This document shows positions 11,625 to 31,914 of a stretch of 51,515 nucleotides of DNA, piece after piece. Position 1 is the stretch's first letter. Every line of letters begins with the position of its first letter. The notes under the pieces were generated by a model. It saw nothing but the letters and a program-made list of their open reading frames with translations, made no database searches and was not told where the DNA came from. The translations under genes were made by a program, and so were the position numbers. Source of the DNA: Calditrichota bacterium (GTDB lineage Bacteria > Zhuqueibacterota > Zhuqueibacteria > Zhuqueibacterales > Geothermadaptataceae); NCBI GenBank assembly GCA_008501765.1, contig QQUE01000005.1, forward strand, positions 1-51,515, in the 5' to 3' direction.

Positions 11625-14600
11625 TTATCTCAATAAAATCATTTTTTTGATTTGCACAAAATTGCCAGACCGAATTTTATACAGGTACACGCCCGTTCCC
11701 ACAAATCTTCCATTTGCGTTTCGAGCATCCCAATGCACAGAATACCAACCCGGTGAATAGGATTGTTCAACCAATTTCACGATTTCTTTGCCAAGCAAAT
11801 CATAAATCGTGATGTGCACTTCAGCAGGTTCCGGTAAGCCAAATCGAATTACAGTTGTCGGGTTGAATGGATTGGGGTAGTTTTGCAGCAACGTGAACTT
11901 ATCGGGTGTATTGCTCTCAAATGTTTCTACGCTGCTTGGTAGCACAACCGCGAAGGTGCGCGGCCCATTTTGTGCGATTATCGAAGAATCTGAATCGCTA
12001 GCGGTAACTTGCCAGGTGATAGTCTCCTCCAAGGGGAAATCCCAGGTTGTTAAGTCGATAACAAAAGCTGTCGTATCGAGGGCAAAACTGGTGTCGTAAC
12101 CGGAGTTGGTGGTAAACTGCAGAATATATGAAACTGCATCGTTATCTACATCGATTGATGCTTCCCAAATTAAAGTTATTTGCGCATCGTTTTGAAAGGA
12201 TGCATCATCAGCTGGTGCCAATAAATCAAATTCGTTTGGCGGATCGTTGACTGGAATGACCGATATAGCGAGACCTGTTGTGTCGTGGTTTTCACCATCG
12301 CTGACAATAATTTGAAAATTCTCAGTACCAAACCAGTTATCAGGAGGCGTGAAATGTACGGAGTCACCGTCGGTAGTGATTTTTAAATCCACCCCGCCAA
12401 TACATCCCCAGATTAGGTCGGAGTCCGGAGTATCGGCGTCTTCCACAAATTCGAACCAGGTGCTGTACGCTATACTTAATGTGTTGTCTTCTAAAAAAGT
12501 GCTGTCCGGCAAATTTGATGCGAAAACGGGACTGGATTTGGGTGGGGGCGGCCCATCGAACCATGAAAAAATACGCGAGAGTAAATCGGTGCGATTGTTT
12601 TGAGCGAGTTTTTGAAATTCAAAAATCAGTGTCGCAACACGTGATACTCCATTGAATAATCGTAAACCAATAACCTTGTCGTTGTTTGATTCCACGAGAA
12701 AAGCAGTTGCGTCGTTCGTTGGAGTCAACTCCATACCTGAAAAATTTTCTGGGAAGGATGCAGTAAATCCAGCACTGATGGGATCACCAGCATATCCTGC
12801 AACTGAAGTGTTGTATTCTGAAAAATATGCTTGCTGATCAATACCAAGAACACGACTGGTAAATGTAGGATAAAAATACGCTAATCGCGCAGTCGTGTTC
12901 GCTCCGGCAAAAAGAACGGCTGGCCTGGGTTCTTCACTTTCAGCAGGATTTAGATATTGTTCTAAAGCAGTCGTGTCGAGCTCGGCATGTTCAACAACAC
13001 CGTCACCGGTGAAAATAACTTTTTTATAATTAGACAGTTGCCCTGCGTCGGGAAATGGGGTGTGGCCAAGATGCAGAACATCTAATTTGATGCCGGTTTC
13101 TTCAAAAATTTCCTGGAAATTGTGGGTTTGAAAATTGTTAGGTGGTGAGGTGAGAAGAAGCAGGTTCTCTGCCACCGGCAAACTGCCGACCGGTTTGGTG
13201 AAATCTGTTATCGAATCCAAAACAGCCTTGATGACATATTTGCCCGCTGTGTCAATAGTTAAGTTATCCCAAGCCACCGTGCCGTCTGTTAATGATTTAA
13301 CCAGACCATTCACATCAGTTGTGCTCAAAACAGCATTTGCTACTGAAACACTATCGTTTCCGACCAACGAAAGAGTGAGATCGCTTCCATTCACTGATGA
13401 CAATTTGTTGCCGTTGATATCCACCAGTTCCACGGTAAATCCATTGACACCAAAATATGAATAGGCCAGGTTTTCGCCTGGGAAACCGCTTTGTAAATTG
13501 TTGAAAATCATCCCATGCGGTGCCATTTGGATCGGGATAGCGCTGGATGCAGTATTTACATTATCAAATGAAAAAAGTGATCCGGTGGAATCGATAATGA
13601 CATCATACAGGCCATTGATTTTAAAATCGAGGTTGAGCCCATCAAGCCCAGCCAGACTGGTTTTAAGCCAAACTTTTAACGTGAAATCCACGCTGTCAGC
13701 CTCGGGAATGGTAATGAATCCAGTGCCAGGAACTGAAAAAATAATGCGCTCTTTATATACCAACCCGGTAAAGGATTCACCTGTTGTGGTTTCGAGTATC
13801 GCTCCGCCAAGTGCCGCTGTGTAGCCAAAATCGAGTTCTACACCGCCTTCAGTCAATGTGTATTGCAAAGGCATATTTTGCCCAGCCTGAAAAATGACTT
13901 TGTTGACTTTTGTCGGTTTTCCATCGCCTCCAGCATCATGCAGTGTAAACTTAAAAACTTCCAAAGCTGCTGTCTCAGAATTTGCGTTGGAAGATATATT
14001 TGTTGGAAATGTGAACCCCTCAGCAAGTTGCAGCATGGTTGTCGTGTCTGTATCAGTCGCGGCTGTGCGCAAATGCAAATTTGAATGATGCGCCAGGTAA
14101 ACCCCGCCAGCACTTGAATAGGGCACATAAACCGTGTTGCTTTTAATATCTAAAGCGATTTTGTGATTGATGTGGGTGATATCTTTTCCAACATCATTGA
14201 TAAACGGCACGGCCATTGATGGGACGCCCCAATTTGATCCATCGAAGTAGTTATAATAAAGCGAGGCAGTCCCGGATCGTTTTTCCCAGACCACATGCGC
14301 GTGTCCAAAGTCATCCAAAACCATGCTAGGGATGACATCTTCAGCACCATCGTTACTAATATTCACTGGAACGATCCAATCACCTTGCACATTATTTGTG
14401 TAATAGATCTCAGCGTTCTCGCCCGCGCTGAGAAATGCAAGATGTAAAAAACCGTGGCTGTCGATGGCGAGTGATGGCCAGTTTGCGTTCACACCAAAGT
14501 TTTCTATTTTCACCGGAGCGCTCCAATTTCCGCTGACATTATTCACATAATTAACGCTTTCGGCAGTGTCGCCGGCTGCCCAGTAACCCACGGCGAGATG

Positions 14601-15149
14601 AACATTGTTGTCTTTATCGATGGCAGTTGAATAAAATGCCACACGGGTACCTGCAGCCAGTGAATCCCATGGTAAAACAGGGGAGTTCATGTTTTGATAA
14701 TAAATCATGCTGCCCGCATTGTCTGCTTCAGCAAAAAGGTGTGGGACTAAATCAGTTCCCACCTCAATGCCCACTTCGTGAAAGTGATCACCACTCATCA
14801 CTCCTGGCCAGGATGCGTCGGGATTATTCGTAACGTAGCGCACGGAAGAAGCTTCTTTGCGGTAGGCGACGTGGTAGAATCCCAGATTGTCGCCCACAAC
14901 ATTGGGATACCAGGTATAGCTATAATTCTCCCCAGCGATAACGCGCTTTTGCCCCCAACCGTTGTGCTGATTGGAAATATGAACAACTTTATCATCAGTA
15001 TTGACCCAAACTACATGAATATTTCCTAATGGATCAGTAGCAATATTGGGTTGCTGACCAGTTTCGGTGGCGATTTGTGTTTGCGTCCAGGTTATTTGTC
15101 CGAATAATATAACTGGCAGGAAAAAAAGTAAAAGTAGCGTTTTATTCAT
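11625..15149 (-). CDS. large secreted BNR/sialidase-type propeller protein with sorting-type C-terminus
   Basis: Protein of 1174 residues with a signal peptide (ending LFGQ). Residues about 20-350 carry repeated blade-like motifs (ATDPLGNIHVVWV, AIDSHGFLHLAFL, VLDDFGHAHVVWE) typical of BNR/exo-alpha-sialidase-like propellers. A beta-rich middle follows (about 370-900), with Ig-like folds including a GSDLTLSLVGND segment. Next are cadherin-like/Ig-like repeats (LPDSTFLEDNTLSIAYSTWF; VNDPPNEFDLLAP) at about 900-1080. Residues about 1090-1174 are the YPNPFNPTT C-terminal module ending KKMILLR. The strict Asp-box pattern SxDxGxTW is not clear, so enzymatic sialidase activity is doubtful; a binding or adhesin role is more likely. 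SD AGAGG is 7 bases before the ATG. Confidence 0.82.
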   Translation of the reverse strand: MNKTLLLLFFLPVILFGQITWTQTQIATETGQQPNIATDPLGNIHVVWVNTDDKVVHISNQHNGWGQKRVIAGENYSYTWYPNVVGDNLGFYHVAYRKEASSVRYVTNNPDASWPGVMSGDHFHEVGIEVGTDLVPHLFAEADNAGSMIYYQNMNSPVLPWDSLAAGTRVAFYSTAIDKDNNVHLAVGYWAAGDTAESVNYVNNVSGNWSAPVKIENFGVNANWPSLAIDSHGFLHLAFLSAGENAEIYYTNNVQGDWIVPVNISNDGAEDVIPSMVLDDFGHAHVVWEKRSGTASLYYNYFDGSNWGVPSMAVPFINDVGKDITHINHKIALDIKSNTVYVPYSSAGGVYLAHHSNLHLRTAATDTDTTTMLQLAEGFTFPTNISSNANSETAALEVFKFTLHDAGGDGKPTKVNKVIFQAGQNMPLQYTLTEGGVELDFGYTAALGGAILETTTGESFTGLVYKERIIFSVPGTGFITIPEADSVDFTLKVWLKTSLAGLDGLNLDFKINGLYDVIIDSTGSLFSFDNVNTASSAIPIQMAPHGMIFNNLQSGFPGENLAYSYFGVNGFTVELVDINGNKLSSVNGSDLTLSLVGNDSVSVANAVLSTTDVNGLVKSLTDGTVAWDNLTIDTAGKYVIKAVLDSITDFTKPVGSLPVAENLLLLTSPPNNFQTHNFQEIFEETGIKLDVLHLGHTPFPDAGQLSNYKKVIFTGDGVVEHAELDTTALEQYLNPAESEEPRPAVLFAGANTTARLAYFYPTFTSRVLGIDQQAYFSEYNTSVAGYAGDPISAGFTASFPENFSGMELTPTNDATAFLVESNNDKVIGLRLFNGVSRVATLIFEFQKLAQNNRTDLLSRIFSWFDGPPPPKSSPVFASNLPDSTFLEDNTLSIAYSTWFEFVEDADTPDSDLIWGCIGGVDLKITTDGDSVHFTPPDNWFGTENFQIIVSDGENHDTTGLAISVIPVNDPPNEFDLLAPADDASFQNDAQITLIWEASIDVDNDAVSYILQFTTNSGYDTSFALDTTAFVIDLTTWDFPLEETITWQVTASDSDSSIIAQNGPRTFAVVLPSSVETFESNTPDKFTLLQNYPNPFNPTTVIRFGLPEPAEVHITIYDLLGKEIVKLVEQSYSPGWYSVHWDARNANGRFVGTGVYLYKIRSGNFVQIKKMILLR

Positions 15150-22930: not shown

Positions 22931-24253
22931 GTGTTTCGAAATATATATTTACATTTATCTGCGTGGGCCAGGCAAAAAGAGAAACGCAAAGTGCTTCTAA
23001 TCCGCGGTGCGCGGCAGGTTGGGAAAACGTATGCAATACGTGAGCTTGGAAAAAATTTTAAGCATTTTGTCGAAATAAACTTTGAAGAAGACAAACAAAC
23101 ACATGCCTTTTTTCAAGATTCTCTGAATCCTGTTACGATTGCAGAAAAACTATCCGTTTATTCGGGCACACCAATTCGCCCGGGTGAAACACTTCTCTTC
23201 TTTGATGAAATACAATCCTGTCCAAATGCCCTGCGATCACTTCGATTTTTTTACGAAAAAATGCCCGAGTTGAATGTTGCTGCCGCTGGTTCCTTACTGG
23301 AGTTTGCCCTTGCAGCACTGCCATCTTTCGGAGTGGGGCGTATTCGTTCTCTCTTCATGTATCCCTTATGTTTTGAAGAATTTCTCATCGCCATGGGCGA
23401 AGAAAAGCTGATCGATGAAATTAAAAATGCAACTGCAACCAGGCCGTTGTTAGTGCCATTTCATCAGAAACTCATCAATTATCTGAAGATTTTCCAAATA
23501 ATCGGGGGGCTGCCGGAGGTCGTGGCTTCCTACCTGGCCGACAAGGATATCCAGCAATGTTTTTTACTGCATGACGATATTATTACGACTTATCGGGATG
23601 ATTTTGCCAAATACAAAAAAAATGCATCTGCCTTGCGTTTGAATGAAGTGTTTAGCGCTGTTATGCAGCAGGCAGGCAGCAAGTTTAATTATTCCAGGAT
23701 CACTGCAAACGCATCCACACGTCCGCTCAAAGATGCCCTCATGTTGCTCATTCAGGCGGGCCTTGTTTATCCAATTTATCACACCGCTGCACGAGGAGTA
23801 CCGATTGGAGCGCAACTAAATCCTAAAAAATTTAAACTCATACCTTTTGATATGGGAATCTACCAACGATTGTCCGGACTAGATTTGAAAACGTACATGA
23901 CTTCGAATGATATTGATTTAATCAACAAGGGAAGCTTAGCTGAGATTTGTGCCGGGCTTGAGCTCATCCATTCTCAGCCAGTTACCAGAAAAGCTGAACT
24001 TTTTTACTGGCATCGTGAAGCGCGCGGCAGCAATGCAGAAATCGATTACTTGCTTGCACTCGGGCAGCAAATTATTCCGCTGGAGGTAAAAGCAGGTACG
24101 AAGGGACAAATGCAGAGTATGCATTTATTTATGCGTGAGCGGGAGTGTCGTGCCGGCTGGCGTGTCTCATTGGAAAATTATGCTCAAATAAATGGAATTA
24201 AAGTCTTACCGCTTTATGCCCTGAATATTTTTCTTAAAATATTGAACAAATGA
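22931..24253 (+). CDS. AAA ATPase with C-terminal DUF4143 (COG1373 type)
   Basis: Protein of 440 residues. The AAA_14 N-terminal ATPase has Walker A GARQVGKT (26-33), Walker B LLFFDE (88-93) and sensor-like AAAGSLLEFAL. The C-terminal DUF4143 region (about 200-400) ends with a possible PD-(D/E)xK nuclease-like core, Glu370-x-Asp372 and Glu385-Val-Lys387 in EIDYLL and PLEVKAG. The function of the family is unsettled; members occur as solitary genes in many bacteria and archaea and are often horizontally spread. The GTG start has GAGGAG 6 bases upstream. The phased repeats just upstream suggest its own control. Codon use is a little more AT-rich than the neighbouring secreted-protein genes. Confidence 0.9.
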   Translation: MFRNIYLHLSAWARQKEKRKVLLIRGARQVGKTYAIRELGKNFKHFVEINFEEDKQTHAFFQDSLNPVTIAEKLSVYSGTPIRPGETLLFFDEIQSCPNALRSLRFFYEKMPELNVAAAGSLLEFALAALPSFGVGRIRSLFMYPLCFEEFLIAMGEEKLIDEIKNATATRPLLVPFHQKLINYLKIFQIIGGLPEVVASYLADKDIQQCFLLHDDIITTYRDDFAKYKKNASALRLNEVFSAVMQQAGSKFNYSRITANASTRPLKDALMLLIQAGLVYPIYHTAARGVPIGAQLNPKKFKLIPFDMGIYQRLSGLDLKTYMTSNDIDLINKGSLAEICAGLELIHSQPVTRKAELFYWHREARGSNAEIDYLLALGQQIIPLEVKAGTKGQMQSMHLFMRERECRAGWRVSLENYAQINGIKVLPLYALNIFLKILNK

Positions 24254-24294: not shown

Positions 24295-25056
24295 TCAAAA
24301 CCGCAGCGACAAACAACTCAGCCCGCCATCCAGTTTTTGGAACTCGGAAACATCCACTTCGATTGTCGGGTAACCGGCATCTTCAATCATTTTATTGGTT
24401 TTGGGAAATCCTGCCGGAACAAGAACGGTACCGTTTACCCAAAGGCAATTGGCGGCATAGCTTTCGTCTGCTTCAACCTGTAAAATATTGAAATTTTTAA
24501 ATTCATCCTTGTCGATAAATTTTCCACAAGCCAACAGATTGTTGTTCTCCAAATAGGAGACACCGGTTTTTAAATGCAGCACTTTTTCCAGCGTCACGCA
24601 AGATCCTGTCATCCTGTATTTTTCTAAAAAACTGATCATCTGCGCTGCTCCGGCAGGATTCGTTCTTTTAGAAATGCCAATAAAAAAGTGGGAACCAACC
24701 ATCAAAATGTCGCCCGCCTCCACCGTGCCCGGTGGTTCGATGGATTCAATGTGGGAATAGAAATCTGTAAGCGCATTTTTAATGGCTGCTGTTTCACCCC
24801 GGCGCGATTCAGCCCCCGGATTTGTGATGATGGCGCATTGAGGTGTGAGCAAAGCCGTGTCTTCGACAAATGTCGAATCCGGATAGTTTTCCTCGGCTTC
24901 GAGTATTGTGACTTCGAGGCCGCATGCTTGCAAGGCCTGAATGTACTCGTCGTGCTGCTGCAACGCTTTTTCATAGTCCGGTTGCCCGAGATTAGCTGTC
25001 GTGAGGCCGTGAATCATGTATGTGCATGGTGTTTTAACAAGGGCTTTCGCGAACAA
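24295..25056 (-). CDS. dimethylarginine dimethylaminohydrolase (DDAH) family
   Basis: Cytoplasmic enzyme of 253 residues of the guanidino-group-modifying superfamily. DDAH converts N-omega-methylated arginines to citrulline plus methylamine or dimethylamine. The catalytic residues sit exactly where Pseudomonas DDAH has them, offset by one: Glu113 (VEAGDIL), His161 (VLHLKTG) and Cys248 (GGLSCLSLRF), with Asp60/Asp66 in PDSTFVEDTA and Arg85/Arg86. Length (253) equals the family norm. The start is TTG with AAAGGA about 6 bases upstream. Related enzymes (arginine deiminase, agmatine deiminase) share the fold, but the length and motif spacing favour DDAH. It lies downstream of an AdiC-like antiporter and an MttB-like methyltransferase on the same strand. 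Confidence 0.88.
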   Translation of the reverse strand: MFAKALVKTPCTYMIHGLTTANLGQPDYEKALQQHDEYIQALQACGLEVTILEAEENYPDSTFVEDTALLTPQCAIITNPGAESRRGETAAIKNALTDFYSHIESIEPPGTVEAGDILMVGSHFFIGISKRTNPAGAAQMISFLEKYRMTGSCVTLEKVLHLKTGVSYLENNNLLACGKFIDKDEFKNFNILQVEADESYAANCLWVNGTVLVPAGFPKTNKMIEDAGYPTIEVDVSEFQKLDGGLSCLSLRF

Positions 25057-25095
25057 GAGTTTCCTTTCATTGATGTGGATAATTTATGAAGAATA

Positions 25096-25184
25096 ATGTG
25101 CCGCGCACTTATTCGTTTTTGTCAATCGCGAGAAATAATTTAAGCTTCTCAATTTTATTTATATCAGATAAGTGCGCGGCACAT
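25096..25184. repeat. 89-bp element with 17-bp perfect inverted ends
   Basis: ATGTGCCGCGCACTTAT (25096-25112) and its exact reverse complement (25168-25184) enclose 55 bp. A small palindrome TAGCGCGCTA follows immediately. The element fills most of the gap between the DDAH gene and the antiporter gene, both on the minus strand, and could form a cruciform or an mRNA hairpin between them. The arms lack a U-tract, so a plain terminator is not the best reading. Confidence 0.75.
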
Positions 25185-25201
25185 AGCGCGCTATTTCTTA
25201 A

Positions 25202-26509
25202 TTATTTTTCCATATGTTTCATCCAAATATAGGCAGGCAAGCCGGAAAGTAGCAAAATAAATCCATAATAAACAGTTTCTTCCCCGGCACCGATAATCGC
25301 CCAAACGGCGAAGATAAATCCCACAATATTGATGGTCATTTTTTTCACAAAAGCCGAAGTCACGATTTGACCTTTTGATTTTAGGAGAAATGACCATTGC
25401 GTCATCGCCGAGAAACAGTATGGAATCAAGGCTGTAAGCGTCGAAAGTAAAATGAGAATACCAAATTGTTTGACGAGGCTAAAATGATTGTTCAGAAAAA
25501 TGAGTATGATTGCTAAAATACTTGAAAAAATGACGCCAAATTGCGGTGCTCCATTTTTTGAAACCTTGGCGAACGCAACGGGGAATAGCCCATCATTGGC
25601 AGCCGCTTGCGGTATCTGGCCTTGCAATAAAATCCAGCCATTCATGGCGCCGAAGCACGCGATGGCCGTGGCTCCGGCTACCGCAAATCCTGCCCACGAT
25701 CCCCACAAAAGTGTGGCTGCATCGGCGTAAGGCGCCGCCGATATCTGTAGTTCCTGCGGGGCAACGAGTCCCATCACTGAAACAGAGCTCAAAATATAAA
25801 TCAATGCGACAAATAAAGTGCTGAAGAGTGTTGCACGGGGCACTGTGACACTTGCATTTTTAACTTTGTGGGAAACAATGGTACTCGATTCAAATCCAAG
25901 AAAAGCCCATAAAGTCAGTGTCGCGGTTGCTGTCAGTGCTGAAAAATTGCTATCACCGGTTAAATTAATTGGTGTGAAGTATTCCATCTGCCATTGTGAA
26001 AAACCCAACACCCCAATAGCGACTAATGGAATGAGTTTCAGCACGGTGGTCGCCATTTGCACATGCCCGATTTTTCGCAAATCCAATAAGTTTACAATGG
26101 TCAAAATAGCAATGGCGCCCGCAGCGGCGAATGAACCGGGGATTGTGTTTTCTTTCAAGATGGGAAAAAATACCGATAGTGCTCCGGTGAATGCGATTGC
26201 GATGGCGGCCACCGCAGCCCAAATGGAAATCCAGTAACCCCAGGCGACCCAAAACGCGGCAAAGGCTCCGAATCCTTCGTACGTGAAAGCGTATGGCCCG
26301 CCACCGCGGGGAATCTTTTTGCTCAAATCAGCGAAAACTGAGGCCAGGCACATAGCGCCAACAAAACTGAGAATCCATCCACCGATGCTGATGCTGCCGT
26401 AATGTGCCAAATTCGCCGGCAATAGAAAAATACCTGAGCCAACCATGTTGCCAACGATGAGGGCGGCGCAAAACCAAAAGCCGACGGTTTTTGTAGATGA
26501 TTTTTTCAT
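25202..26509 (-). CDS. APC-family amino acid permease, AdiC-like antiporter
   Basis: Membrane transporter of 435 residues with about 12 helices. The unwound first helix reads GNMVGSGIFLLPA (residues 20-32), close to the arginine/agmatine antiporter AdiC and related basic-amino-acid antiporters. The central LWAFLGFESSTI matches the helix-6 signature. The frame extends 27 codons upstream, but the ATG at 26509 has AAAGGA 7 bases before it and begins MKKSSTKTVG, a better N-terminus. Clustered with DDAH and an MttB-like enzyme, exchange of arginine, methylarginine or citrulline is an attractive inference; the specificity is not proven by sequence. Confidence 0.87.
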   Translation of the reverse strand: MKKSSTKTVGFWFCAALIVGNMVGSGIFLLPANLAHYGSISIGGWILSFVGAMCLASVFADLSKKIPRGGGPYAFTYEGFGAFAAFWVAWGYWISIWAAVAAIAIAFTGALSVFFPILKENTIPGSFAAAGAIAILTIVNLLDLRKIGHVQMATTVLKLIPLVAIGVLGFSQWQMEYFTPINLTGDSNFSALTATATLTLWAFLGFESSTIVSHKVKNASVTVPRATLFSTLFVALIYILSSVSVMGLVAPQELQISAAPYADAATLLWGSWAGFAVAGATAIACFGAMNGWILLQGQIPQAAANDGLFPVAFAKVSKNGAPQFGVIFSSILAIILIFLNNHFSLVKQFGILILLSTLTALIPYCFSAMTQWSFLLKSKGQIVTSAFVKKMTINIVGFIFAVWAIIGAGEETVYYGFILLLSGLPAYIWMKHMEK

Positions 26510-26615
26510 GAAGTTCCTTTGGAAAAAAATGCCACGGATTGCATGGATTGAACACTCATTTTTCTTTCTATTTAATCCATTTTCGATCAATGAAAACAGT
26601 GGCTAATAACAAAAA

Positions 26616-28028
26616 TTATTGCTTAATAAAATCCTCACCTTTTGCAATCAGTTCATCATGATCGGCAGGCGGTTTCATTTCAGCTATAATATCCAACGTG
26701 TGTTTTTGCAAAATATCTGCAGCTTGTGGTGTTCCACCTGCTTGCCAATTTTCCAGCGTATGTCCCGGCCAGATGGCGCTGTGTTGCTCATTCATTTTTT
26801 GGAAAAGGTTGAGTGTTGCTTCGGAAACGAGAAAATTACCACCAGGCCCAATCAAATCGATTTGTTCGAGTGCAAAATTAGTTTCATCTAAATCAAATCC
26901 CGCTTCAAACAGGCGCACCTGCCGGATGATTTCGTCGGCATAAACAACTGTTTCGGGTGAAAAAACCAGGGAATCAAAATTTCCGCCAACAAAAGGCGCC
27001 AGCCCGGTTTTCCCCAAAATGCTGGTTAAATGATTCATCCACAGGGTGCCGCTGGCGAGTAAATCTGCGCCCCAACCACTGCCGCTGCCCGAAGTTCCGG
27101 CGTGCGGAATGCGGTAAAATGCCATCATTTCAGCACAGGCCAAGTTGAGTAACATTGTTTGCGGCGTGTAGGCTGAGATCATATTTTTCATTTCAAACAG
27201 TGCCGGCAGACTGCCTAAAATCACCGGTGTTCCTTCTTTGATGAGTTGGGTGAAAACCAGGCCTGCGAGAAGTTCAGCATTGAGCGTGACGAGTGTGCCG
27301 GCGCCCGTGATCGGTGTCGTTGCGCCAGCCATGCCATAATTGGAGTAAATAATGGGTAATCCGAACTCGATGCTGGTGAAAATTTTGTCTGAGGTTTCAT
27401 CATTTAAAACCAATGGTGTGACCGGATTAAAATAGGGAAGCAGGAATGGCAGGTCGGCTAAATTGCCATGCAAATGCTGCAGCAGTTCGAGTACATTGCG
27501 AAAATCTGTGGCGCCTGCGACCAGCAAAACCAGAGGTTTTTCAGTATTTGCCACCATTTCCAGAGCGGCATATTGTTCACTGATCTCTGCGGGTAAATCT
27601 TGAATGATGCCGGGCGTTGAAATGAGATCATAATTCGTTAATTTTTCACCAAGACGGCATGCTTTTGATACATGTTCACGGAGGAAAGGAATAATTTTAC
27701 GGGATTCAGGCTCTTCGTACCATAAGTTGGTGACGCCAATTCCAAAGCGGCATTGCGCGCCTTTCCCTATTGAAAACGCCTGATCGCCCCGACGATTGTA
27801 GACGTCAATTGTGGGCGGTGCTGATGGAATGGCGGATTCGACAATTTCGGCCGGGATGGAAATTCGTGCGGCATCAATTTTTTTGCAACCCGCATTTAAA
27901 AAGATATTTTGTGCTTTCTCAGAATCAACGCGAATCCCGGTCTTTGCTAAAAGCGTGAGTGAATTTTGATGAATTTCTTCGATTTGTGCCGGCGACAAAA
28001 ATGTTAAGTTGGGTTTGGCTTTGGACAA
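26616..28028 (-). CDS. MttB-superfamily corrinoid methyltransferase (non-pyrrolysine type)
   Basis: Protein of about 470 residues of the trimethylamine methyltransferase (MttB) superfamily. The N-terminus FLSPAQIEEIHQNSLTLL and the central glycine-rich AGTSGSGSGWGADLLASG are typical. No in-frame TAG occurs, so there is no pyrrolysine, placing it with MtgB-like enzymes that demethylate quaternary amines such as glycine betaine. These enzymes pass a methyl group to a cobalamin protein; neither the corrinoid protein nor a methyltransferase II gene is in the window. Start: a GTG at 28040 has no SD, whereas the TTG at 28028 has GGAG 6 bases upstream; I use the latter. It is first of three minus-strand genes, with 106 bp to the antiporter gene. 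Confidence 0.85.
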   Translation of the reverse strand: MSKAKPNLTFLSPAQIEEIHQNSLTLLAKTGIRVDSEKAQNIFLNAGCKKIDAARISIPAEIVESAIPSAPPTIDVYNRRGDQAFSIGKGAQCRFGIGVTNLWYEEPESRKIIPFLREHVSKACRLGEKLTNYDLISTPGIIQDLPAEISEQYAALEMVANTEKPLVLLVAGATDFRNVLELLQHLHGNLADLPFLLPYFNPVTPLVLNDETSDKIFTSIEFGLPIIYSNYGMAGATTPITGAGTLVTLNAELLAGLVFTQLIKEGTPVILGSLPALFEMKNMISAYTPQTMLLNLACAEMMAFYRIPHAGTSGSGSGWGADLLASGTLWMNHLTSILGKTGLAPFVGGNFDSLVFSPETVVYADEIIRQVRLFEAGFDLDETNFALEQIDLIGPGGNFLVSEATLNLFQKMNEQHSAIWPGHTLENWQAGGTPQAADILQKHTLDIIAEMKPPADHDELIAKGEDFIKQ

Positions 28029-28293
28029 AAAGTACTCCACTTTTTATTGGCAAAATGGTTGAGGGAAATAATCTTTTCGATAGATTAAAATACAGCGTGA
28101 AAATGGGACTGTCAATGATTAAAGGCGCATGTTATGTGGTAGAATGAAATTAATAATTCTGCAGTCGATGATTTAATTATCTGGCGATTGCTTTTGTCCT
28201 GATGATTTTATAGGTTTACTAGATGATAAATGTATGGTTGATGAGTTGATACGAAAAATATGATATTTTATAGTGATTTTGGAGCGAAACATT

Positions 28294-31200
28294 TTGAAGA
28301 ATATGTATTCATCCAGTATTACCAGGCTCAGATATATTCTGTGTTGCTTCGGCATTCTCTTTCCTGCAATTCTCTTTTCCCAGCAGCTCCCGTTTCATGG
28401 GAGTCCGGCTGCAATCCCCGGAATTATAGAGGCTGAAGATTTTGATACCGGCGGCGAAAACGTAGCCTACCACGATACCGATCAAAGCAATAATGGTGGC
28501 CAATACCGGTCGGATTCAGCCGTCGATATTGAAAGAACGACTGACGGTGGTTTTAATATTGGCTGGACGCAACCGGGTGAATGGCTCGAATTCACGGTTT
28601 TTGTGCAGCGCGGCGGTAGCTATAGATTCGAATTCCGTATTGCATCTGCCTCCAGCGGCGGCGATTTTTACTTGGAATTTGATGGGAAAAATGCGACTGG
28701 CACTGTGCATTTTCCGGCCACAAATGGTTGGCAGAACTGGGAAACGGTTACAATTGCGGAAATAGTTCTCGCGCCCGGAGAACAAGTCATGCGCTTTGTT
28801 TGCGAAAGTGATGGCTTTAATTTGGATTACATAAACATTGTGCACGCCAACAAGAACCCACCCACGGTCGAATTTACTGCTCCGCAAGATGGCGCATCGT
28901 TCGCTTTCGGCGAAGATATTCAGCTCGCCGCCACCGCCCTCGATTCCAATGGTTCAATAGAAAAAGTGGAGTTTTACGCCAACGATAAAATTATTGGCGC
29001 AGATATCACCGAGCCTTACACGTGGCAATGGGCGAGTCCAGCCACAGGAAAATATGATTTGGTGGCCATCGCAGTGGATAATGAAGGATCCATCGGCGTC
29101 TCAAAAAAAGTTGATATCACCGTGCTGTTCCCGGCATTTTCCGGGGCATTAAATCTCTCGCATGAACGGGGTTTTTACACACAAGCTTTCAATTTAAATA
29201 TCGCAGCAGACTTTGAAAACGCCACGGTCAATTATACTTTGGACGGATCAGATCCACTGTTCTCGGCAACGGCAAAGAGTGCGCCTGCGCCGCTACAAAT
29301 ATGGATCGATCCTGAAAATAGTGTTGGTCGCGGTGATACCCCCGGGGTAGTTTTTCGTGCGGTGGGGATGAAAAATAACCTGCAGCATACAGCGGTAATC
29401 ACCCATTCCTATCTGTTTGTGGAAAAAGTGAAAACACAGGGCCATCCGGGCGGTGAATGGCCGGACAGTGGTATCAACGGTCAGTATTTGCGCTATGAAG
29501 TCAGTTCAGAAGTTGCCAATGATAATCGCTATGCTGATCTCATTGACGATGCATTGCTGGATATCCCCAGCATTTCATTGGTTACAGATCTGAAGCATCT
29601 CTTTGACAGTGATTCCGGAATTTACGTAAATGCCGTTTACCACGGCCGTGATTGGGAGCGCCCGGTCTCGGTTGAGTTGCTCAATCCTGACAAATCTGAC
29701 GGATTCCACATTGATGCCGGCATGCGGATTCGCGGAGGCTGGAGTCGCCACGATGAATACCCCAAGCATGCTTTTCGTCTGTTTTTCCGCGTCGAATATG
29801 GGGAAGAAGAATTGGTTTATCCATTGTTCGAAAACGAAGGTGTCGACAGATTTCGCAAAATGGATCTGCGAGCCAGTCAGAATTATGCCTGGAGCAATGG
29901 CAATATCTATGAAAATGTGATGAACCGCGATGTCTTTTCCCGTGATTTGCAGCGGGAGATGGGGCAGCCCTATACCCGAAGTCGCTACTATCATTTGTAC
30001 GTCAATGGTTTGTATTGGGGATTATTTCAAACACAGGAACGATCTGAAGCCAATTTTGCAGAAAGTTATTTCGGCGGCAAGTCGAGCGAATACGATGTCG
30101 TCAAAGTGGATATTGGTGATAATTTTAATTTATATGATATTGAAGCGACCGATGGAAATCTTGATGCCTGGCGCGAGGTGTGGGATGCCTTAAATTCAGG
30201 ATTTGTCACATATCCAGATTACTTTCGAATTCAGGGTCTTAAGCCGGATGGCACCCGTGATCCATCTGGTCGAAAATTGATAGATATCGACAATCTCATC
30301 GATTACATGCTGACAATTTTCTACGGTGGAAATTTCGATGCACCGGTGAGCAAATTCAGCGGCGAACGCAATCCCAATAACTTTTATGCCATCTTTAATC
30401 GGGAGGCGAACGACGGTTTCATTTTTTTAAACCACGATGCTGAACACACGTTACTGGTAGACCGAATTAGCCCTGGAGCCGGGATTGATGAAGACCGGGT
30501 GAATATCGAACTGCGAAGCACTACTTTTAACAAGTTTCACCCACAGTATCTGCATGCGAAACTCACAGAAAATTCAGAATATCGTCAGCGGTTTGCGGAT
30601 CGAATTTACTGCCACATGTTCAATGATGGCGCGATGACAGCAGAAAATGTGGCAAAACTTTTCCTCCATCGTGCTAACGAAATCGATTTGGCAATAATCG
30701 CTGAATCGGCTCGCTGGGGGGATTTGCTGCGATCGAAAAATAATGCCTGGCAGCCTGCAATCGACCTGATTGTCAATGATTATTTTCCCCGCCGCGGTGA
30801 AATTGTCATGCAGCAATTTCAAGAAGCGGGATTATATCCCGTTTTACAGCCACCCATTTTTCAAAACAATAGCCGCGAAATTCAGAACAGTGAATTGACT
30901 TTGGATATTGGTTTGACGCTGGAACTGCTCAATCCAAACAGTGGAGCAGGCTCGATATTTTATACTTTGGATGGCAGTGATCCACGCATGGTTGGGGGAG
31001 CTGTTTCTCCCTCAGCCATTGATCTCGGCGATGGCAATCGAATTTCTGTCCGTTCAACTGCAAAACTGCTGGCACGAATCCATGATAGTGGCAATTGGAG
31101 CGCATTGCATGAGTTGAAAATTTATGGTTCTGAAAATCTTGGCAGTCTTTTATTGTCGGAAATCCATTATCATCCACTGGATGAGGGTGCAACAAGCGGC

Positions 31201-31914
31201 AAATTATTTGAGTTTATCGAATTGCAGAACACTGGCACCAGCGTGCTCAATCTTTCGTTAATTTCATTTATTCGCGGTATCGATTATACTTTTCCTTCGG
31301 GAACTATTTTACCGGAAGGTAAATTTCTCGTTTTAGCCTCAGATAAGTTGCATTTTCAGCAGCGCTATGGTTTTGCCCCCTTTGCTGAATTTACTGGCCA
31401 GTTGGATAATGCCGGTGAAAATCTAACGCTGGCCACTGCGACGATTGATACACTCATAACGCTGCGTTACAATGATAAATCGCCCTGGCCAGAATCCGCC
31501 GATGGCGCAGGCTATTCGCTCACATGGACAAATAATAGTGGCAATGGCGAGCCCGGTGATCCGCGAAATTGGACAGCCTCCCACGCGATCCACGGCTCTC
31601 CGGGCGAGGCTGATCTCGCTGTTTCCGTGTCTGCAAATACTGCAATGCCACAGCGATTTGCACTGTATCAAAACTATCCCAATCCTTTTAATCCCACGAC
31701 CACAATTCAGTTCTATCTTGCTAAATCAAGTTTCGTAAAATTAAATATTTATGATATTCTTGGCAGGCACATTGAAACAGTGTTCGAAAAGCATTTGCCG
31801 GCTGGACAGCATGAAATGATTTGGCAGGCAAACAGCCACGCTGCCGGTGTCTATTTTTATCGAATTGAAGCGGGTTCGTGGATACAGACGCGCAAGGCAT
31901 TGTTGTTGAAATGA
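28294..31914 (+). CDS. secreted CotH-type protein with CBM6-like, Ig-like, lamin-tail and sorting domains
   Basis: Multidomain extracellular protein of 1206 residues. Signal peptide (ending LFSQQ), then a CBM6/carbohydrate-binding module (about 36-186; PGIIEAEDFDTGG, GEWLEFTVFV), an Ig-like domain (about 189-279) and a chitobiase-C-like fold (about 286-378; NYTLDGSDP). A CotH kinase-like region (about 416-770) includes GMRIRGGWSRH, KMDLRASQNY and FLNHDAEHTLL. After a second NxTLDGSDP-type domain comes a lamin-tail domain (about 950-1100; LLLSEIHYHPL) and a YPNPFNPTT module at the end. CotH proteins are atypical protein kinases. The TTG at 28294 has GGAG about 9 bases upstream; an earlier GTG (28273) has none, and the ATG at 28303 is too distant. 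First of a run of plus-strand genes. Confidence 0.88.
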   Translation: MKNMYSSSITRLRYILCCFGILFPAILFSQQLPFHGSPAAIPGIIEAEDFDTGGENVAYHDTDQSNNGGQYRSDSAVDIERTTDGGFNIGWTQPGEWLEFTVFVQRGGSYRFEFRIASASSGGDFYLEFDGKNATGTVHFPATNGWQNWETVTIAEIVLAPGEQVMRFVCESDGFNLDYINIVHANKNPPTVEFTAPQDGASFAFGEDIQLAATALDSNGSIEKVEFYANDKIIGADITEPYTWQWASPATGKYDLVAIAVDNEGSIGVSKKVDITVLFPAFSGALNLSHERGFYTQAFNLNIAADFENATVNYTLDGSDPLFSATAKSAPAPLQIWIDPENSVGRGDTPGVVFRAVGMKNNLQHTAVITHSYLFVEKVKTQGHPGGEWPDSGINGQYLRYEVSSEVANDNRYADLIDDALLDIPSISLVTDLKHLFDSDSGIYVNAVYHGRDWERPVSVELLNPDKSDGFHIDAGMRIRGGWSRHDEYPKHAFRLFFRVEYGEEELVYPLFENEGVDRFRKMDLRASQNYAWSNGNIYENVMNRDVFSRDLQREMGQPYTRSRYYHLYVNGLYWGLFQTQERSEANFAESYFGGKSSEYDVVKVDIGDNFNLYDIEATDGNLDAWREVWDALNSGFVTYPDYFRIQGLKPDGTRDPSGRKLIDIDNLIDYMLTIFYGGNFDAPVSKFSGERNPNNFYAIFNREANDGFIFLNHDAEHTLLVDRISPGAGIDEDRVNIELRSTTFNKFHPQYLHAKLTENSEYRQRFADRIYCHMFNDGAMTAENVAKLFLHRANEIDLAIIAESARWGDLLRSKNNAWQPAIDLIVNDYFPRRGEIVMQQFQEAGLYPVLQPPIFQNNSREIQNSELTLDIGLTLELLNPNSGAGSIFYTLDGSDPRMVGGAVSPSAIDLGDGNRISVRSTAKLLARIHDSGNWSALHELKIYGSENLGSLLLSEIHYHPLDEGATSGKLFEFIELQNTGTSVLNLSLISFIRGIDYTFPSGTILPEGKFLVLASDKLHFQQRYGFAPFAEFTGQLDNAGENLTLATATIDTLITLRYNDKSPWPESADGAGYSLTWTNNSGNGEPGDPRNWTASHAIHGSPGEADLAVSVSANTAMPQRFALYQNYPNPFNPTTTIQFYLAKSSFVKLNIYDILGRHIETVFEKHLPAGQHEMIWQANSHAAGVYFYRIEAGSWIQTRKALLLK

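Follow-up and report, generated by a model that had tools for sequence, protein, structure and literature searches.

The DNA analysed here (51,515 bp; hereafter the window) is the entire contig C9 of genome G000, an assembly of 5.9 Mb in 21 contigs that is estimated to be 98.92% complete. On its minus strand, from 28040 to 24295, lie genes for an MttB-like methyltransferase, an AdiC-like antiporter of the APC family and a dimethylargininase (DDAH), all three intact in the list of open reading frames (ORFs). The original prediction had reported this run, which the ORFs and the Pfam and NCBIfam families bear out, and had read it as suggesting a salvage route from methylarginine to methylamine, or a related one for quaternary amines. 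We conclude that the run probably consists of two separate modules of known kinds, the antiporter with DDAH and the methyltransferase, which are neighbours by chance. This reading follows from the surroundings of the genes in relatives, where only the antiporter and DDAH recur side by side and the MttB-like gene has other neighbours. The part of the salvage route formed by the antiporter and DDAH is supported, as the two are adjacent in two relatives and their residues are kept; MttB as its third step is not.

Surroundings of the genes in related genomes

Homologues that group with the window MttB-like protein in one clade were found at 12 loci outside the window, nine from a scan of a genome collection and one each in G034, G019 and G002 (a fragment in the last). 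No homologue of the antiporter or of DDAH lies near the clade MttB at any of the 12 (tblastn, E at most 1e-5). The flanks covered about 9–10 kb on both sides in eight loci and 5 and 10 kb at L026, with L024, L027 and L031 located on short contigs of 5.5–7.2 kb. In the congener G002, the antiporter–DDAH pair is on a different contig from MttB, and the gene that follows MttB encodes an HD-domain protein. The same holds for G019 and G034, where MttB shares its contig with neither the DDAH homologues nor the best APC homologue. The original prediction had named a lack of such linkage in any relative as one outcome that would refute its route; linkage was not found in the available loci, and this counts against the route.

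DDAH matches (E at most 0.001) are present in 13 of the 40 genomes searched, G000 included. At an identity of at least 38%, there are 11 DDAH-type places, one being the window's own, which leaves 10 other loci, and the antiporter gene adjoins DDAH at two of these. In G002 (C329), a gap of about 114 bp separates a 72% identical APC fragment from the 74% identical DDAH that comes after it; in G034 (C41), a 60% identical DDAH is followed by a 40% identical APC protein. An APC homologue of the same type was absent from the fetched stretch at the DDAH loci of G024, G028, G030, G032, G037 (C34), G019, G034 (C44) and G018. With two of the 10 other loci showing the pair, the arrangement is recurrent, not universal. 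Near the DDAH gene of G024 are genes for an amino acid kinase, a Cys/Met PLP enzyme and a Na+/H+ antiporter, and the DDAH gene of G028 shares its run with genes for a protein of the arginine deiminase superfamily, a sodium:alanine symporter and an M20 peptidase.

The antiporter and DDAH

The DDAH gene (24295..25056, minus strand; 253 aa, TTG start) encodes a predicted enzyme for the conversion of N-omega-methylated arginine to citrulline and methylamine or dimethylamine. The protein aligns over its full length with the structures 3rhy (E 1.8e-100) and 1h70 (E 4.5e-99), which we take to be those of Pseudomonas aeruginosa DDAH. With one gap allowed, L18, D60, F63, E65, D66, R85, E114, R132, H162 and C249 are identical in the window protein. 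We assume these to be the substrate and catalytic residues, with Cys249, His162, Glu114 and Asp66 (P. aeruginosa numbering) being catalytic. Enzymes of this family hydrolyse methylated arginine and so free dimethylamine or methylamine (compare PMC4569260). The window protein differs from the P. aeruginosa enzyme in that its score (388 bits, NF045658) is under the NCBIfam equivalog cut-off of 450. A permease gene presumably lies next to ddaH in P. aeruginosa as well; of that neighbourhood, ddaH (PA1195) and the regulator gene PA1196 are documented.

The antiporter (25202..26509, minus strand), a predicted arginine-type carrier, is listed as an ORF from the TTG at 26590. The preferred start is the ATG at 26509, which has AAAGGA upstream of it, and translation probably begins there and not at the TTG. 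The nearest solved relatives are AdiC structures (3ncy, E 1.7e-76). The residues aligned with N22, G25, S26, G27, W202 and W293 of AdiC, which we take to be its substrate contacts, are identical, and I23 is replaced by Met. The identity at these six positions makes an arginine-type substrate plausible. Unlike the AdiC arginine/agmatine antiporter, the window protein stays under the curated cut-offs (307.3 bits against 574 for PRK10644 AdiC; 292.6 against 409 for TIGR00905) and has DDAH instead of a decarboxylase as its next gene. The MttB-like protein is also under the cut-off of its best NCBIfam match (225.8 bits against 525 for TIGR02369, trimeth_pyl). Judged by Pfam (MTTB 173.6 bits with a cut-off of 25, AA_permease_2 163, DDAH_eukar 41.9, ADI 38.1), the family assignments are nevertheless clear.

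The conserved residues and the recurrence support a putative unit for methylarginine or another arginine derivative. In such a unit, the antiporter would exchange or import arginine-type compounds, and DDAH would hydrolyse N-omega-methylated arginine to citrulline and dimethylamine or methylamine, products that would enter nitrogen or arginine catabolism. A similar grouping is the arginine-induced roc cluster of Mycobacterium tuberculosis, described in the available passages of PMC4569260, in which a putative arginine permease (RocE) and the DDAH-annotated Rv2323c are found together with RocD. Rv2323c is required for growth on arginine, and these passages report no assay of its activity. The likeness to the window is the company of an arginine permease and a DDAH-annotated enzyme; the roc cluster differs in holding an aminotransferase, and no MttB is named in the same passages (PMC4569260).

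The gap between the two genes contains a palindromic dispersed element (25096..25184, without strand) that is part of neither module. It is a hairpin of about 88 bp, with perfect 17-nt arms and a 55-nt loop. With at most one mismatch allowed, G000 has 33 occurrences of the arm core (reversed control 0). The whole element matches 22 times in this genome, whereas 12 relatives gave no match. The 14 distinct copies extracted are 87–89 bp long, and in three of them (L138, L146 and L147; by eye) the arms vary by paired changes. As for its kind, the element looks like a repetitive extragenic palindrome (REP) or a miniature inverted-repeat transposable element (MITE). A known RNA structure was rejected as its identity, as there is no Rfam match in the window at the gathering threshold. 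The corresponding gap of G002 (L080:237-362) has a different inverted repeat, read by eye.

The MttB-like protein and its candidate partners

The MttB-like gene (26616..28040, minus strand; 474 aa, GTG start) encodes a non-pyrrolysine methyltransferase of the MttB superfamily, predicted to be a corrinoid-dependent N-demethylase. PF06253 covers residues 6–473 (profile 25–493 of 500), and the matches in the PDB are MtgB (2qne, E 8.2e-38), 9yce (E 1.3e-37) and MttB (7xcl, E 3.8e-32). As in the MtgB/MtpB/MtcB/MtyB superfamily, PF06253 extends over the whole length and the amber codon is absent; the window protein differs in falling into a separate clade. Pyl334, Gly110 and Tyr364 are described as MttB residues in the available part of PMC9842639. 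Mapped by hand, the Pyl334 column has Ser319, Gly110 is kept as Gly100, and Tyr364 corresponds to Pro349. A pyrrolysine MttB was ruled out by the lack of an in-frame amber stop and the Ser in the Pyl334 column, and identity with three pyrrolysine MttBs is 23–25%. The FG.GV segment, which includes the position of Gly110, is kept, and its F, both G and V are invariant among 12 aligned clade members. Docking predicted Y94, N199, R309 and H345 as residues of DhMtgB (PMC6855144, seen in part). These positions, which are docking-predicted only, correspond to I101, N205, A314 and F350 in a hand mapping that takes in a one-residue shift between the numbering of the paper and that of the PDB chain. One of the four (N199) is kept, which leaves a glycine betaine assignment conceivable but without support.

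Close homologues (E at most 1e-60) are present in four of 82 genomes of the phylum, G000 included. The genome-collection scan seeks exact short peptides and so gives a partial sample of the clade; from 26 candidates it yielded nine loci (47–53% identity), eight of Desulfobacterota type and one in an Anaerolinea metagenome-assembled genome. Here the clade has 13 members, the window protein among them; one is a fragment (G002, 68%) and the other homologues are 47–64% identical to the window protein, the closest complete one being that of G034 (64%). In a FastTree tree of 23 sequences, the 12 complete members split from the other PF06253 proteins with a support of 1.00, and several deep nodes inside the clade are weak (0.40–0.73). 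The tree and the alignment were made without the G002 fragment and without weaker matches in G015, G025, G029, G030 and G034 (C28). The 12 complete members, the window protein included, have 96 invariant columns in common.

Several clade loci carry ATP-binding cassette (ABC) transporter genes near MttB: SBP_bac_3, BPD_transp_1 and ABC_tran at L023; SBP_bac_3 at L026; BPD_transp_1 at L024 and L025; BPD_transp_1 and ABC_tran at L020; and SBP_bac_8, ABC_tran/TOBE_2 and BPD_transp_1 at L021. None was seen by eye at L027. These neighbours in the Desulfobacterota loci suggest an imported small substrate of unspecified identity. For MtyB and MtcB, the available passages of PMC8604678 describe a neighbouring transporter gene, as is found beside the window gene. 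In the same passages, quaternary amines are the substrates of the characterised non-pyrrolysine members, and MtyB reaches under 1% of its activity with one secondary amine. At the Desulfacinum and Desulfotignum loci, the clade MttB has a second MttB nearby; in all five of these that were checked, the codon for pyrrolysine is an in-frame TAG (L020:11541-12836, L022:11541-12836 and, on the minus strand, L023:4735-6081, L025:4930-6306 and L026:195-1175).

No corrinoid protein is encoded beside the window MttB-like gene. In G034, the genes that come next after the 64% identical homologue, on its strand, encode a PF02965 protein (Met_synt_B12, the MetH activation domain; 34.7 bits) and then a B12-binding protein; the three genes overlap or nearly touch. 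In G000, contig C10 encodes at 159,324-161,971 (L076:5325-7972) a stand-alone corrinoid protein (B12-binding_2/B12-binding), a PF02965 protein and a URO-D-type protein. This corrinoid protein is the best candidate partner of the window MttB. The enzyme would take the methyl group of a methylated amine, in all likelihood a quaternary one, and pass it to Co(I) in an unlinked corrinoid protein. This may be that of C10, whose gene is followed by those for the MetH-activation-like and URO-D-type proteins and which the MetH-activation-like protein may reactivate. Precedents for unlinked partners exist. In Eubacterium limosum, the corrinoid protein MtqC serves three MttB homologues (PMC8604678, in part), a shared and unlinked protein, and in Ruegeria pomeroyi the mtg genes for the PF06253 proteins and their corrinoid and pterin partners (MtgBCD) are at separate loci (available passages of PMC12478193). 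The congener G001 has the C10 cassette, with identities of 73%, 56% and, across just 115 residues, 69%, and no MttB match; a cassette of this type is thus independent of MttB.

The original prediction had listed the corrinoid protein and a second methyltransferase as missing and had named a genome lacking any corrinoid partner as an outcome against it. A corrinoid protein is present, unlinked, on C10 together with the URO-D-type protein. A separate second methyltransferase of the pterin type was not found in a Pterin_bind search of G000, where two proteins carry this domain: MetH and one of 401 codons that is taken as FolP. The ramA-like activase that it proposed to look for was not found either: RACo (PF14574) is absent from G000 and from G001, and present in 28 of the 40 genomes searched, G000 included. 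The PF02965 protein adjoining the C10 corrinoid protein could stand in for RACo. R. pomeroyi, by comparison, has RamA, DUF1638 and the pterin methyltransferase MtgD (PMC12478193, in part), whereas the searches of G000, which did not include DUF1638, gave neither RACo nor a separate pterin-binding methyltransferase. A dimethylamine methyltransferase in the genome was ruled out, PF09505 being absent from all four genomes searched with a positive control in Methanosarcina acetivorans (the monomethylamine family was not searched). Two further arrangements were seen in G034. On C28, a 952-codon open frame cut at the contig start (L043:1-2856) has MTTB, B12-binding and Pterin_bind, apparently a fused methyltransferase system, and the ORF after it is similar to the MetH-activation-like protein. 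On C79, a row at L077:5000-10057 consists of URO-D, RACo, PF02965, corrinoid protein and homocysteine S-methyltransferase, the last cut at the contig end.

The gene run and alternative readings

The gaps in the run are 106 bp between the MttB-like gene and the antiporter (counted from the ATG at 26509) and 145 bp between the antiporter and DDAH. Such short gaps on one strand make co-transcription possible, not more. A single terminator-like hairpin (26546-26532) is located inside the first gap, and terminators in the region are near the number expected by chance (7 against 5.1 ± 2.2 in shuffles). A promoter-like site with a 10/12 match (28115-28087) lies upstream of the MttB-like gene; the region has 12 such sites against 7.1 ± 2.7 in shuffles. 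The genes on either side are on the plus strand: at 28273-31914, one for a large CotH/CBM_6 protein that ends up with a Por_Secre_tail match, and at 22931-24253, one for an AAA_14/DUF4143 protein. Neither is evidently related to the run.

Several results weigh against two unrelated modules. G000, G002, G019 and G034 are the only genomes of the 40 searched (G000 included) with a clade MttB, and all four have homologues of DDAH and of the antiporter, both at 38% identity or more. At this threshold, DDAH is present in 10 and the antiporter in seven of the 40 genomes, and a naive draw gives 0.0023 and 0.0004, respectively, for the co-occurrence. Corrinoid homologues were found within the fetched flanks of just three of the 12 clade loci (G034, L020 and L022), those of L020 and L022 (Desulfacinum) being about 3 kb off at 14464-15099 behind the amber-containing MttB; the fetched stretches of the other nine have none, with 20 kb covered around the G019 gene. 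Lastly, the amino-acid-type SBP_bac_3 neighbours at L023 and L026 would fit a transported amine or amino acid as the substrate of MttB. The co-occurrence, the amino-acid-type transporter neighbours, the shared strand with its short gaps and the arginine contacts retained by the AdiC-like carrier would agree with one pathway. In it, a methylated basic amino acid would enter through the antiporter, DDAH would split the methylated guanidine, and MttB would demethylate either that compound or the amine released and hand the methyl groups to a corrinoid protein. The four genomes make up only two lineages (one genus and one family), however, so their co-occurrence is no independent test, and among them the DDAH of G019 is only 40% identical. 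A single salvage route has no support other than the adjacency of the genes in one genome and a co-occurrence that is phylogenetically confounded. One pathway is further at odds with the 12 clade loci that have neither homologue near MttB, with the split of the genes across contigs and the HD-domain gene after MttB in G002, with the quaternary amines used by the characterised enzymes (PMC8604678, in part) and with the lack of PF09505 in the four genomes. We regard it as improbable. In one open-licence library, MttB and methylarginine came up together only in a conference report, whose passages deal with each separately.

A variant in which the AdiC-like carrier brings in a methylated basic amino acid, such as trimethyllysine or a methylated arginine, for the clade to demethylate, with a MetH-activation-type protein replacing RamA/RACo, appears very improbable. 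The MttB-like protein could also be a glycine betaine methyltransferase of MtgB type or a trimethylamine methyltransferase of MttB type, for which the neighbours would be irrelevant. The common superfamily, the PDB matches to both and the FG.GV segment speak for this; the low identity to the pyrrolysine MttBs, the Ser and Pro in the Pyl334 and Tyr364 columns, the retention of N199 alone among the docking-predicted residues (PMC6855144, in part) and the presence, at the Desulfacinum and Desulfotignum loci, of a distinct amber-containing MttB alongside the clade member make it unlikely. Lastly, the gene might be a relic without a working partner: with no RACo in G000 and, as Pterin_bind is confined to the frame taken as FolP and to MetH, no MtgA-type second methyltransferase, methyl groups might not be passed on. 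Yet the gene is intact and keeps all 96 clade-invariant columns, the C10 corrinoid protein has a MetH-activation-like neighbour, both of the protein types that follow the G034 homologue, and at 98.92% completeness an activase could be missing from the assembly. We consider a relic the least probable of these explanations.

We therefore favour two modules that would have no metabolite in common, and the three-gene story is resolved into two that are testable. For the MttB clade, this provides a candidate partner set of a corrinoid protein and a MetH-activation-like protein. If the PF02965 protein does replace RACo, this would explain how the corrinoid is recharged in an MttB-bearing genome without RamA.

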